Assembly: GCA_024742875.1 (NCBI GenBank)
Contig: JANSXP010000007.1
Location: forward strand, 1 to 64,000
Length of the DNA stretch: 64,000 bases
Reading direction: 5' to 3'
DNA from: Planctomycetaceae bacterium
GTDB taxonomy: Bacteria; Planctomycetota; Planctomycetia; Planctomycetales; Planctomycetaceae
Below the pieces are notes generated by a model that worked only from the letters and a program-made list of their open reading frames with translations, did not search any database and was not told where the DNA came from. Of the stretch, positions 54,648-61,681 are shown in pieces. The stretch's first letter is position 1. Every line of letters begins with the position of its first letter. A program made the translations under genes and the position numbers.

Positions 54648-57284
54648 CTACTCATCAGAGCCGGATACGGTGGCGTTGTAGTCCACGCCATCGGGAACTT
54701 CGGTTGGCACTTTGACCGTGCGACCCGGTTTGCCGTCTGTTTTGGTCAGAGAGTCGACAGCGATGAACGCGGTGAAGTTGCTCATCAGGCTGTGGTTGAG
54801 CGCCGTTTGCAGCACCGACTGCCGGATTTCTTCGGCCGCCTCGGGAGACGTTCGCAGGGTATTCATCATGTCCTTGATCTTCAGGCGGGCCCAGACGGCT
54901 CCCACTCCGGAGTGCTTCTGTTTGTCGGCCGCACTCACGTCAAAAGAGGCAGGCTGCATGCCCGCACGACCGTTGACTGATACCGTGTCGACTTCTCCTT
55001 TGAAGCGACCGCTAATGATCACCGGGCGCCCCACGATCAGGTCGGGAATGCGTTTGGGGTAGACGTCCGCCACGTCCATTTTGCCCCAGTCGATCTGCAG
55101 GTCGGTCATGGCCGGATGAGAAATACGCTCGTTAAAGCGATCCATCACTTCCACGGCGTCATCGTTGAGGCTCAGGTAGGCCACCGCCCCTTTGCCCAGA
55201 ATGGCCATGCGGTCCATCAGCATTCGATTGGGCGAACTGCCGACACCAAAACTGAAGATGCGGGATGCCCCCAGCTTGTCGTTCACTGCCTTGAGGATGT
55301 CGTTTTCATTGCCGATGAATCCGTCCGTCATGAATGACACAATGCGAAAACGGCCTTCGTCATGCGGGAAATCGAGCGCCGCTTTGACGCCTTCCACAGC
55401 ATGTGTGGGGCCCGTTCCGGTAAGTCCACTCAGGTAATCCAGTCCCTTCCTGATGTTTTCTTCCGTGGCGATCACGGGCGCCGGTCCGAGTGTCGACGAA
55501 GTGCTCGAAAACTGAATGATCTGGAACGTGTCTCGTGGTGTCAGATTTTGCACGCAGTGGGCAATCGCGTTTTTGGCCTGCTGAATGGGCTTGCCCCGCA
55601 TGCTGCCCGAGCAGTCCAGCACAAACACCATTTCCATGGGCGCCCGTTCGATCTTCTGCAGATCAGCGGGAGGGTACAGCATCATGGTGAAGTACTGACC
55701 GTGGCTGTCAGACTGCGTCATCAGGGCCGTCTTGATCTCCTGCCCGGCCACAGCGTAGCGAAACACGAAGTCCTTGTTGGGAATGCTGTCGCCGGCTGCC
55801 AGGCGGATGGTCCGCTGCCCAGTCTGCTGCTGCTCCACGTCAATCGCGTGATTGACACTGTGCATGTCTTCAATGGTGACCCCCGCATTTAACTCCAGCG
55901 TGAGCGAGACATCCCGCCCACTGCGTTCGCCAGGAGCCAGATATTCGATCTCTGTCGTCTGACCGCTGGTGCCTGCTTTGCCACGGGCCACCGCGCCGAT
56001 TCCATCACTGCCGCCAGGATTGAACCGAGGCCCAACCACCATGGGGAAGACAAACTCGTAAGCCCCGTCGTCGTACTGCAGCGTGCTGAAGTAGCGGATG
56101 TCGATGTCGATCTGATGGCCGGGTTCAATATTGGCCACCTTTTGCGTGAAGATGTTGGCCCGCTGCTGCGTCATTAGTGAAGCCACATGGCCCTGGGCTT
56201 TGGCGGCTTCGTAAATCTGTTCGGCCTTTTCTTTTTCGCGAATGATGCCTCGGATCTTTCGCTCACCGACAGTCATTACAAATTCGCTGACAGCCGCGCT
56301 GTCGGGCAGCGGGAACGTGTAGACGGCTTCGATCCTGTCCTCAAATGGATTTTCAAACTGCTGCGTCACGTTCACCGTGGCGATGTAACCGGCGATGCGG
56401 CCCTTCACGTCCGTGTGCTTCAGTGGGCAGGGAACCTGGCTGTCATCCGGCAGCGTGGCCAGCAGCGATCCGGTGCCTGCGATCTGATTGTCGCGGGTTC
56501 CCGCTGGCGGTTTGGCGATCACCCAAAGTTCCTCGCCAGGCTGCAGTTCGCTGAGGGCACTCAACTTTTTCAGCTCCGCGATTTTCTGAGCAGTGGGAGC
56601 CCCGCCGCCGCCACCGCCGAGGCCACCACCACCTCCTGCGCCACCAAATCCACCAGCACCTGCTCCAGAACCTGCTCCTCTCAGACCACCACGAACCGGG
56701 CTGTCACCCGGCATGTTCAGAGCGCGACGACGCATGTCAGTGCCACCATCGGATCCAAAACTCGGCAGGCTGCCACCGGAAATTGCGTTGCTGGCTGCCT
56801 GCCCGGCTGCCGGGGATGCGCCTTCTCCACTGGTTTTCGCGGGTGATTCGCCGCCACGCTGGGCGAGCCCCATTCCCTGTTTGGAGGCTGCTGACTCCGG
56901 CGGGCGCTGCCCCTCGCCACTGCCGGCAGGAGATGGCGGGGCCACCCCCTGCTTTTCGACCCGCGCCTGATCGGATTCGATATTCTCAAACGGCGTCTGC
57001 ATGTGGTCGGCAGGTTCCGCGGAGGGCTCGATGGCCGCCTTCTCTTCTTCTCCGGCCGCGATCTGCATCAGTGAGTCTTCGGCATCCGCTACGGAATCGG
57101 CCAGTGCGCCGGCCTCAGGAGCTGCCTCAGATTCCATCGGCGCCGGCGTTTCCGATGCCATATCGGCGGCCGGAGCGTCGGTGGTCTGAGACTGATCAGC
57201 CTGCTGAGATTCGCCACAACCCCACAGAGCCAGACACAGGAGGGCGGGCAGCACAAGTTGCAGGCGGGAGGGAATGCTGTTCAT
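54648..57284 (-). CDS. VIT- and VWA-domain lipoprotein
   Basis: About 878 aa from the ATG at 57284; an ATG at 57296 is possible. A lipoprotein-type signal ends LCLALWGCGES. A long Ala/Glu/Gly-rich region, including a poly-glycine tract (about residues 205-235), leads into a VIT domain (VTQQFENPFEDRIEAVYTFPL, then EKEKAEQIYEAAKAQGHVASL). A von Willebrand A domain follows with MIDAS motif FVLDCSGSMRGKP and SFMTDGFIGNE. The C-terminus is helical, with NHSLMSNFTAFIAVD. Predicted outer-membrane or periplasmic adhesion/scaffold protein. Last gene of an operon with cohesin-like and dockerin-like proteins. Confidence 0.92.
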   Translation of the reverse strand: MNSIPSRLQLVLPALLCLALWGCGESQQADQSQTTDAPAADMASETPAPMESEAAPEAGALADSVADAEDSLMQIAAGEEEKAAIEPSAEPADHMQTPFENIESDQARVEKQGVAPPSPAGSGEGQRPPESAASKQGMGLAQRGGESPAKTSGEGASPAAGQAASNAISGGSLPSFGSDGGTDMRRRALNMPGDSPVRGGLRGAGSGAGAGGFGGAGGGGGLGGGGGGAPTAQKIAELKKLSALSELQPGEELWVIAKPPAGTRDNQIAGTGSLLATLPDDSQVPCPLKHTDVKGRIAGYIATVNVTQQFENPFEDRIEAVYTFPLPDSAAVSEFVMTVGERKIRGIIREKEKAEQIYEAAKAQGHVASLMTQQRANIFTQKVANIEPGHQIDIDIRYFSTLQYDDGAYEFVFPMVVGPRFNPGGSDGIGAVARGKAGTSGQTTEIEYLAPGERSGRDVSLTLELNAGVTIEDMHSVNHAIDVEQQQTGQRTIRLAAGDSIPNKDFVFRYAVAGQEIKTALMTQSDSHGQYFTMMLYPPADLQKIERAPMEMVFVLDCSGSMRGKPIQQAKNAIAHCVQNLTPRDTFQIIQFSSTSSTLGPAPVIATEENIRKGLDYLSGLTGTGPTHAVEGVKAALDFPHDEGRFRIVSFMTDGFIGNENDILKAVNDKLGASRIFSFGVGSSPNRMLMDRMAILGKGAVAYLSLNDDAVEVMDRFNERISHPAMTDLQIDWGKMDVADVYPKRIPDLIVGRPVIISGRFKGEVDTVSVNGRAGMQPASFDVSAADKQKHSGVGAVWARLKIKDMMNTLRTSPEAAEEIRQSVLQTALNHSLMSNFTAFIAVDSLTKTDGKPGRTVKVPTEVPDGVDYNATVSGSDE

Positions 57285-57346
57285 GACAGAGCTCATTGCT
57301 AAATGACAAATGCGAATGTGACGGGCGGTGAGACGGGGCGGACGAC

Positions 57347-57934: not shown

Positions 57935-58435
57935 TTAAAGTGTGACGGCCGTCTGAGCAATCAGGTCGACGTCCTGGCGGTCCGTTTTGCCATCTCTGTT
58001 CTGATCCCATTGGGGCAGCGCCTGTCCGGTTTTGAGATCTCGCGCCATGGCATAGGCATCGAGAATATCGACCTTGCCGTTCTGATCTATGTCCCCTCGC
58101 AGCAGCGATTCCATGTCGCGGCCGGCGTCCGTGCGGACCGAGGACGCCACGTTCGGACTTTGTGGCTCCTGCGGATTCCACGGCACAATCGCCACCAGCA
58201 GTGCGGCGGCAATGAGCGTGCCGGTGGACCAGGCCACCCACCGTCGCGAAGACCGCGAGGGTGGAACGGTTGTCGGTTGAGAAATCTGGCTCAGATGAGC
58301 GGCGGCATCCTGCAAGACGGTCTCGTCCCGATCCGTCGGGATGCCACCGGACGGGCCGTACCGTTTGCGAAGAGCTGCCACAACGTCTTGTGGCAGCTGA
58401 TCTTCCGGCAATTCCGGTGTGTCAGAATGATTCAT
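57935..58435 (-). CDS. Membrane protein with C-terminal dockerin-like repeats
   Basis: 166 aa from the ATG at 58435, with a strong GGAGGT site 7 bp upstream. The N-terminus is cytoplasmic, with anti-sigma-factor-like size, then one membrane helix (about 70-90, WVAWSTGTLIAAALLVAIV). The last ~55 residues are a type I dockerin pair: GDIDQNGKVDILDAYAMA and WDQNRDGKTDRQDVDLIAQ, each with the EF-hand-like Ca2+ loop (D-x-N/D-x-N/D-G). It would be exposed outside the cytoplasm, ready to bind the cohesin-like product of the next gene. First gene of the three-gene operon. Confidence 0.8.
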   Translation of the reverse strand: MNHSDTPELPEDQLPQDVVAALRKRYGPSGGIPTDRDETVLQDAAAHLSQISQPTTVPPSRSSRRWVAWSTGTLIAAALLVAIVPWNPQEPQSPNVASSVRTDAGRDMESLLRGDIDQNGKVDILDAYAMARDLKTGQALPQWDQNRDGKTDRQDVDLIAQTAVTL

Positions 58436-58584
58436 GGGGGTACCTCCAAAGACTTCAGTGTTCCAGACGAAGCATTGGTTCAAGCGATTTTCACAATTGC
58501 CGGGTGGACGCGGTGCACACCTGTTCCGATGCCACGAATGCACGTTCCGACGAAACGCGGCGGTCGGTCATCCGGGCGGACGCG

Positions 58585-60661: not shown

Positions 60662-61681
60662 TTAATTCCCAAACTCCACGTCCATCGAATCCGGATGGAA
60701 GTTCTGCCAGGCCTGACGAAACGACATGATGCCCACCCGCTGCACCAGGGCCTCACCTTTCAGCCGCCCTTCGAGGCACGTGCCATTGCGGACCGACCAG
60801 AGGGATTCGGTTTGTTCGTCACGCATGGTCAGTTCGTCGACGGAGCGAAATGACAGCATGCGATCCTTCAGGCGGGCTTCATACAGGTGCGTGCCGGCCC
60901 CCTGTTTGTCAAAGGTGGCCAGCAATGGGTGATCGTTGATTTCAAAATGGTGCACCGGGTGTTTGAGCATCTGCGTCATCGGCAGCGCCATCGCCCGGCC
61001 ATCCACCTCAAAGCCAAAGACAAACTTCTGTGGCGCGCGATAGTAGCTGCGGGTGAAGCGGGGCGTCACGGACGCCATATTCAGAACCGTCGTCTCGGGA
61101 TGTTGCTGTTTCCAGGCTTTCCATGTCACCATGTCGGTGATCAGCGGTTTGAGTTTTCGGCCCTTGAATTGCCCCGCCATTCCCCGACCCAGAAGGTGGG
61201 CCCATTCGGTCCCCGTTTCGGCGTCACTCATCACCAGGCTGCGCATCCATAGTTTGCCGGAAACCTGCAGGGTCAGCGTTTGCTCATCAATCTGTCGGAC
61301 GTACACGACGCCGTTGTGACAGAGGTGTCACCAGGTGGCCGCGATGGGTGTGCCACCCAGTTCGTCGTTGATGATTTCGCGATAGGGGCCGGTCAGCTGG
61401 TTGATGGGGTAGGCGCGAGACTCTCCGCTGACCTCGACGCCGATAACCAGCGCGTTGTCGGCCAGCTGTGTTTTATCGGCCGTCACGAACGGGGCATCAA
61501 CAATTGCGCGAATCGGCTTGTCAAGCACGGTGACCGGCTTGTAGTCCGCCACGTCACCGGTGGGTGGTCCGATCTCTATCGGTTTTTCATCCGGTTCCCG
61601 ACCTTCCGGCACCGTTGACCAGACGGCCACCGCGGTGGACAGTCCCAGGCAGGCTCCAAAGATTCCCATCCAGCGCAGCAT
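60662..61681 (-). CDS. DUF3179 protein with in-frame TGA: candidate selenoprotein
   Basis: One DUF3179 protein (339 aa) is split by a single TGA at 61328-61330, codon 118, with no frameshift. An N-terminal signal/anchor covers residues 1-22. Before the stop: REIINDELGGTPIAATW. After it: HLCHNGVVYVRQ, then VSGKLWMRSLVM and TEWAHLLGRG, the known DUF3179 order. Family members have CxxC here (TYCPLCG-type), so TGA replaces the first Cys: U118-H-L-C121. The downstream half is intact to 60662. With Sec it would be a UxxC redox centre in the periplasm. A nonsense mutation or sequence error remains possible. Confidence 0.7.
61292..61322 (-). promoter_or_regulatory. SECIS-like hairpin downstream of the in-frame TGA
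   Basis: In the mRNA, CTGTC (61318-61322) pairs with GACAG (61292-61296). Inside this, GGCGT (61308-61312) pairs with ACGTCC (61297-61302) with one bulge, leaving apical loop CGUGU. The loop starts 20 nt after the TGA and has G as its second base, fitting the bacterial SECIS consensus of a loop G among the first two bases, 16-37 nt away. Confidence 0.5.

Follow-up and report, generated by a model that had tools for sequence, protein, structure and literature searches.

The DUF3179 domain-containing proteins (PF11376) are tabulated as a selenoprotein family with the motif UxxC/T in one review (PMC9312934), and the same entry, with the same Pfam accession and motif, stands in the selenoprotein table of a second, from 2026 (PMC13188914, its reference 60). 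For DUF3179 the table entry of the first review refers to Zhang and Gladyshev 2007, a paper that deals with the symbiotic deltaproteobacterium living in Olavius algarvensis. The word Planctomycet is absent from the main text of both reviews. The passages drawn on here from PMC9230427 name a DUF3179 protein just as an entry of a gene table, and those from the 2008 ocean survey (PMC2398784) do not mention the family. Three planctomycete genomes are described in the relevant passages of PMC4807772, and two of them have the Sec machinery together with other selenoproteins. A DUF3179 selenoprotein from Planctomycetota was not found in the literature searched; the supplementary candidate table of PMC4807772 may list one.

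Here we describe a DUF3179 gene from a planctomycete, located on the minus strand of the window (the whole stretch of 64,000 nucleotides that was analysed). Similarly to the published DUF3179 selenoproteins, its product belongs to PF11376 and would carry Sec as the first residue of a UxxC motif, and its U118-H-L-C121 fits the UxxC/T motif published for the family. The published case cited is a deltaproteobacterial symbiont whereas the window member is from a planctomycete, and this comparison was made with the family as tabulated in the reviews. Cys-containing DUF3179 proteins of the phylum (TYCPLCDSA and TWCHLC types) have the domain and the motif column in common with the window protein, but they carry TGC or TGT in place of TGA and as a group have no hairpin above the synonymous null. 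An earlier note on this DNA knew of no account of DUF3179 as a selenoprotein family, and the tables of PMC9312934 and PMC13188914 show that it had been listed as one. As far as can be judged from sequence, the window gene is a new member of a known family and not a new selenoprotein family. What we add, and did not find in the literature searched, is the wide spread of the family in Planctomycetota, repeated switching between Sec and Cys, Sec forms without the second Cys, and an internal duplication of the domain.

A UGA codon at the Sec/Cys column of DUF3179

The minus-strand frame starts with ATG at 61681 and runs for 117 aa to TGA at 61330-61328; past this codon the frame stays unchanged as far as TAA at 60664-60662. 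This TGA is the only interruption of the 339-aa DUF3179 frame in the window; the earlier note, which had joined two same-frame ORFs into one DUF3179 protein split only at this codon, was right in its coordinates. The second half is open from 61327, and 61306 is the first mechanical start (GTG) past the TGA. The read-through protein of 339 aa matched one Pfam family only, PF11376 DUF3179, at 192.7 bits (gathering score 27 bits), and an NCBIfam search with the window protein (P0001) gave no family at E 1. Codon 118 lies in the context PIAATW-U-HLCHNGVVY. The source assembly is a draft of 8.18 Mb in 168 contigs and is 98.1% complete.

Table 1. Features of the DUF3179 locus, in positions of the window
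Feature	Position	Strand	Details and basis
Predicted DUF3179 selenoprotein gene	60662..61681	(-)	339 codons, TGA as Sec; frame, Pfam, A4 alignment with 18 relatives
Probable signal or membrane anchor (N-terminal hydrophobic stretch)	61616..61681	(-)	By eye from translation
First DUF3179 repeat	61073..61465	(-)	About residues 73-203, holds U118; hhalign, approximate boundaries
Putative Sec-UGA (TGA codon 118)	61328..61330	(-)	Cys (or TGA) aligned there in close relatives
SECIS-like hairpin	61291..61323	(-)	Fold of bases past UGA; upper-stem covariation; published bSECIS limits
TGT codon 121 (second Cys of UxxC)	61319..61321	(-)	Possible resolving Cys; from sequence
Second DUF3179 repeat	60671..61039	(-)	About residues 215-337, Asp at the place of U118; approximate boundaries

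A PF11376 search of 150 genomes of the same bacterial family gave a match in 69, and an HMM built from 19 sequences (A4) matched at least 117 of 392 genomes of the phylum at E <= 1e-20, with up to five candidates scored per genome. Loci with in-frame stops were fetched for the column analysis together with part of the remaining matches. The column HMM was run on 155 loci (the window and 154 fetched) and returned 192 rows, and the U118 column is covered by 160 of these. The column count and the hairpin count both exclude L001 and L002 (the window itself). The codon at this column was TGA in 84 rows, TGC or TGT in 63, GAC/GAT in 7, TAC in 3, and GGC, AAC and TTC in 1 each, and the 32 rows that fall short of the column contain no in-frame stop. 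The 84 TGA rows represent 83 distinct loci (window included) in 67 genomes, namely the window's own genome, 12 further genomes of its family and 54 from the rest of the phylum. At least 55 of the 392 sampled genomes of the phylum, the window's own included, carry a Sec form. Other in-frame stops in the matched ranges of the 192 rows numbered just three (L089, TGA at +85; L111, TAA at +238; L140, TAG at -25), and L111 and L140 are Cys members. In the Pfam search of 150 genomes, TGA likewise fell at the U118 column in 17 of the 18 matches that contain one. In the eighteenth (G085), a Cys member, the TGA is located close to the C-terminus, and the genome concerned gave no SelA match. One TAA was seen in the same search at the end of a Cys member (G133).

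Within the genus, the WUHLC form occurs in five of eight genomes (G000, which is the window's own, G077, G120, G127 and G137). These same-genus Sec copies are otherwise intact, save for that of G127, which is apparently split over two contigs. An in-frame UGA where relatives have Cys is one of the marks of a bacterial selenoprotein, and the window gene shows it. The proposal that the TGA takes the place of the first motif Cys of the family was confirmed by the HMM column, with Cys or TGA in relatives. Gene annotation in which every UGA counts as a stop will split or truncate the Sec genes of DUF3179, a family that looks widespread.

The history of the column was followed in a quick tree for which the Sec column was masked and rows of fewer than 90 filled columns were dropped, leaving 153 rows (82 Sec, 58 Cys and 13 with another residue). 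Parsimony gave a minimum of 14 Sec/Cys changes on this tree, which is poorly resolved, with 63 of 150 branches open and starred branches forcing only 5 Sec-label changes. Sec and Cys forms adjoin more than once (e.g., L032, Cys, by L066, Sec), and the window groups with its genus in a clade of five rows that are all Sec (SH-aLRT 98).

Several loci depart from the common form. Four tandem same-strand DUF3179 copies are present at L141 (G307:C23:155805-161240), with TGA at the U118 column in three and GGC (Gly) in one. Two loci, L070 (G051:C4) and L071 (G127:C60), belong to a second, divergent DUF3179 subfamily (SFUVVCNSS / TFUAVCNTG) that also has TGA at the U118 column, and in the SECIS search their TGA codons were followed by stems of 6 and 8 bp, respectively; the L071 frame stops at a further TGA after 162 residues. 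L072 (G014:C1165:2000-3500), which is short and gapped, resembles the L067 gene found in the same genome, and it looks like a decaying duplicate in which the TGA and hairpin are kept in a 75-residue frame. Some paralogues have another residue at the Sec/Cys column, either Asp (L082, L083, L086, L087 and L089) or Tyr (L088, L090 and L091), and the DUF3179 family includes members without the redox residue.

The hairpin downstream of the UGA

The bases past the UGA fold into a hairpin with a 6-bp lower stem (61323-61318 with 61296-61291) and a 5-bp upper stem (61312-61308 with 61302-61298) closed by the apical loop CGUGU (61307-61303). The spacing from UGA to loop is 20 nt, and the fold of the 49 bases after the UGA has an energy of -10.0 kcal/mol. 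Folded without the UGA, the hairpin lies within all of the bSECIS limits given in the relevant section of PMC13188914, i.e., a loop of 3-9 nt with a G within its first two positions, an upper stem of 4-16 bp, a distance of 16-37 nt from the UGA and an MFE <= -7.5. Taken by itself, the 5-bp upper hairpin is weak, with an energy of -2.9 kcal/mol and pair probabilities of 0.49-0.76, and inclusion of the UGA in the fold leads to competing structures. When RNAalifold was given the 14 closest Sec loci from the UGA onwards, it preferred another structure, one without two-sided changes. An Rfam search of the gene returned no SECIS family and three weak matches to unrelated families.

To compare Sec and Cys loci, a hairpin scan was run in which the loop, stem and spacing limits were applied and the energy limit was not. 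The 84 TGA and 63 Cys rows were reduced to 83 and 58 by dropping loci fetched twice (L051, L056, L077, L081 and L092) and a Cys row (L041) whose 60 bases are identical to those of another, and the 13 rows with another residue were left out. A SECIS-type hairpin was found in 81 of 83 Sec loci, the other two having no model hairpin; of the Cys loci, 23 of 58 had one (Fisher p 2e-15, a value that ignores relatedness). The mean hairpin score of the Sec loci was 16.3 as against 6.6 +- 0.6 after synonymous recoding (200 draws, maximum 8.8), whereas that of the Cys loci equalled their own synonymous null (4.5 vs 4.6); this null pools codon use over all rows and positions and ignores shared ancestry.

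A stricter null, which also ignores shared ancestry, permuted codons among rows that have the same amino acid at a position. Pairing in a 7-bp stem reached 78.1% in all 83 Sec loci as against 67.2 +- 1.0% under this null (500 draws, maximum 69.9%), and 88.5% as against 74.5 +- 1.1% in the 66 Sec loci with typical loops. Both values are reported because picking loci by their loop letters favours pairing. In the Cys loci the pairing was 50.7%, close to the 51.3% of the null. The covariation tests addressed the upper stem, which in the 14 closest Sec loci was 98.6% paired, with compensatory changes on both sides in 7 cells. None of 500 shuffles was as high in pairing, two-sided cells or covariation score; the number of pairs with a two-sided change was matched by 27 of 500 shuffles and that of further pair types by 500 of 500, and thus two of the five covariation measures did not stand out. 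The same stem was 48.9% paired in nine Cys relatives, as in shuffles.

Two Cys members (L052 and L053) have a hairpin after the codon that falls within the SECIS limits for loop, stem and spacing. This hairpin is possibly a remnant of a Sec ancestor, and it may equally have arisen by chance, because 23 of 58 Cys loci have one.

Selenocysteine machinery and other readings of the UGA

The complete set of Sec factors for which the earlier note had proposed a search is present in the window's own genome. SelA (485.5 bits) and SelD (256.3 bits) lie about 1.2 kb apart on contig C22, SelB (334.8 bits) is on contig C157, and tRNA-Sec (77.8 bits) is on contig C46, with the anticodon tca (UCA) according to ARAGORN. 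In the family sample, machinery was tested in 70 genomes (the 69 with a DUF3179 match and G132), and SelA was over the cut-off in 13 of 13 Sec-form genomes, whereas 27 of the 57 others had such a match (p 3e-4). Across the wider phylum, SelA was found at E <= 1e-40 in 49 of the 54 genomes with a Sec form, and 21 of 26 others had it too (p 0.28), these being the first 26 of the 53 matching genomes for which no Sec form was listed. There, SelA is simply common and does not tell the two groups apart. Five Sec-form genomes had no SelA match, and SelB was over the cut-off in three of them. The SelB match of a fourth (G208, 90% complete) was below the cut-off at 175.8 bits, and the fifth (G352, 77% complete) gave no SelB match.

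We consider it very probable that the gene encodes a full-length planctomycete DUF3179 selenoprotein in which UGA 118 is decoded as Sec by way of SelB and the hairpin. SelB together with Sec-tRNA(UCA) would decode the in-frame UGA 118 as selenocysteine, and the hairpin, where pairing begins five bases past the UGA, would direct Sec insertion. The earlier note had also proposed a selenoprotein, and this reading is now backed by the machinery, the TGA/Cys column and purifying selection, with strong added support from the SECIS hairpin, which that note did not contain.

Were the TGA a nonsense mutation in a dying gene, a single in-frame stop would be in keeping, as would the solitary position of the gene (tblastn of eight window genes against eight other Sec-form loci of 10-16 kb each gave DUF3179 as the sole match) and the existence of truncated or gapped copies elsewhere (L071 and L072). 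Such a pseudogene is hardly credible in view of the identical TGA column in 83 loci across the phylum, the hairpin, and the selection acting on the gene. In six pairs of Sec loci that share members, dN/dS (NG86) was 0.08-0.18 after the TGA and 0.19-0.28 before it, ratios that are rough because dS was above 1 in several pairs. Purifying selection was thus found on both sides of the TGA, in agreement with the observation in the earlier note that the half past the stop is undamaged.

The draft state of the assembly, with its many contigs, leaves some room for a sequencing or assembly error at what would be a TGC or TGT codon. This is scarcely conceivable given that four other assemblies of the genus have TGA at the same codon and that a hairpin comes after it. 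Decoding of the TGA as Trp or another standard amino acid without selenium, either in a recoded genome or by leaky read-through, would likewise yield a 339-aa product. We regard this as very unlikely, since close relatives have Cys at the U118 column and none of the 160 rows reaching it has Trp, and since both the Sec machinery and the hairpin are present; in addition, two of the seven other window genes checked use TGA as a stop.

Protein architecture and proposed chemistry

The two DUF3179 repeats of the protein aligned with each other in hhalign at E 4.5e-36, which identifies an internal duplication of the domain. An AlphaFold2 model of the 339-aa protein, made from 4 sequences, was mostly beta (pLDDT 79.7, pTM 0.77), and U118, modelled as Cys, ends strand 111-118. 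Judging from the translation and the model, the product is probably exported or membrane-anchored, mostly beta and internally duplicated.

A sequence search of solved structures gave no match, either with the window protein at E 1 or with the A4 profile at E 10, and Foldseek with the 339-aa model found nothing in the PDB at E <= 0.001. Many Rieske domains, with probabilities up to 1.00, were among the 50 Foldseek matches listed for this model, and its likeness to the Rieske ferredoxin fold (2qpz) had a probability of 0.99, a target TM-score of 0.62 and E 0.067. A 157-aa model of the first repeat reached a pLDDT of 73.5, with its other four models below 46; the best Rieske-type protein among its listed matches was NirD (2jo6), at a probability of just 0.51 and with nothing at E <= 0.001. 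Rieske [2Fe-2S] proteins bind their cluster through the ligand motif CxH...CxxH and, unlike them, the window protein has neither CxH nor CxxH. Profile comparison with the eight Rieske proteins of its own genome gave 0.1% probability and no similarity. Rieske homology was thus not clearly reproduced with the lower-quality first-repeat model and found no support in the profile comparison, and it is kept here only as a lead.

The second Cys of the motif is kept in 69 of 82 readable Sec loci, the remainder having Ala (6), Thr (3), Glu (2), Leu (1) or Val (1), and in 46 of 58 Cys loci. Among these loci the first position is more constant than the second, which fits a catalytic selenolate with a usual, but not constant, nearby resolving Cys. 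The earlier note had placed the gene in the pattern of Cys-to-Sec exchange in CxxC motifs; the TGA does stand in place of the first Cys, but the pattern is too narrow, as 13 of 82 readable Sec loci have no second Cys. The redox-active selenolate is most likely Sec118, the residue with which a beta strand in the first repeat ends, and Cys121 would be the probable resolving thiol. DUF3179 offers many natural Sec/Cys pairs, as well as Sec forms without the second Cys, in which to ask why Sec is kept.

A broader proposal, which we put forward as a speculation and think rather unlikely, is that DUF3179 in Planctomycetota could be a large, old selenoenzyme family with a single catalytic Sec (or Cys) in place of a CxxC pair, the second Cys being dispensable (UPLA, UPLT, USSE) and the Sec column retained. 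Its duplicated, perhaps Rieske-like domain would then have traded metal-centred for selenium-based redox chemistry.

The viral contigs searched contained no relative. In the window, the DUF3179 gene is flanked by a uracil-DNA glycosylase-like gene and a GNAT acetyltransferase gene, and the neighbourhood was dropped as a clue to function as no neighbour was common to the eight other Sec-form loci. Elsewhere on the minus strand of the window, positions 54648-57296 encode an 882-aa protein with VIT and VWA domains and a Gly/Ala-rich stretch, and positions 57935-58543 encode a 202-aa protein with a dockerin type I match of 27.6 bits.
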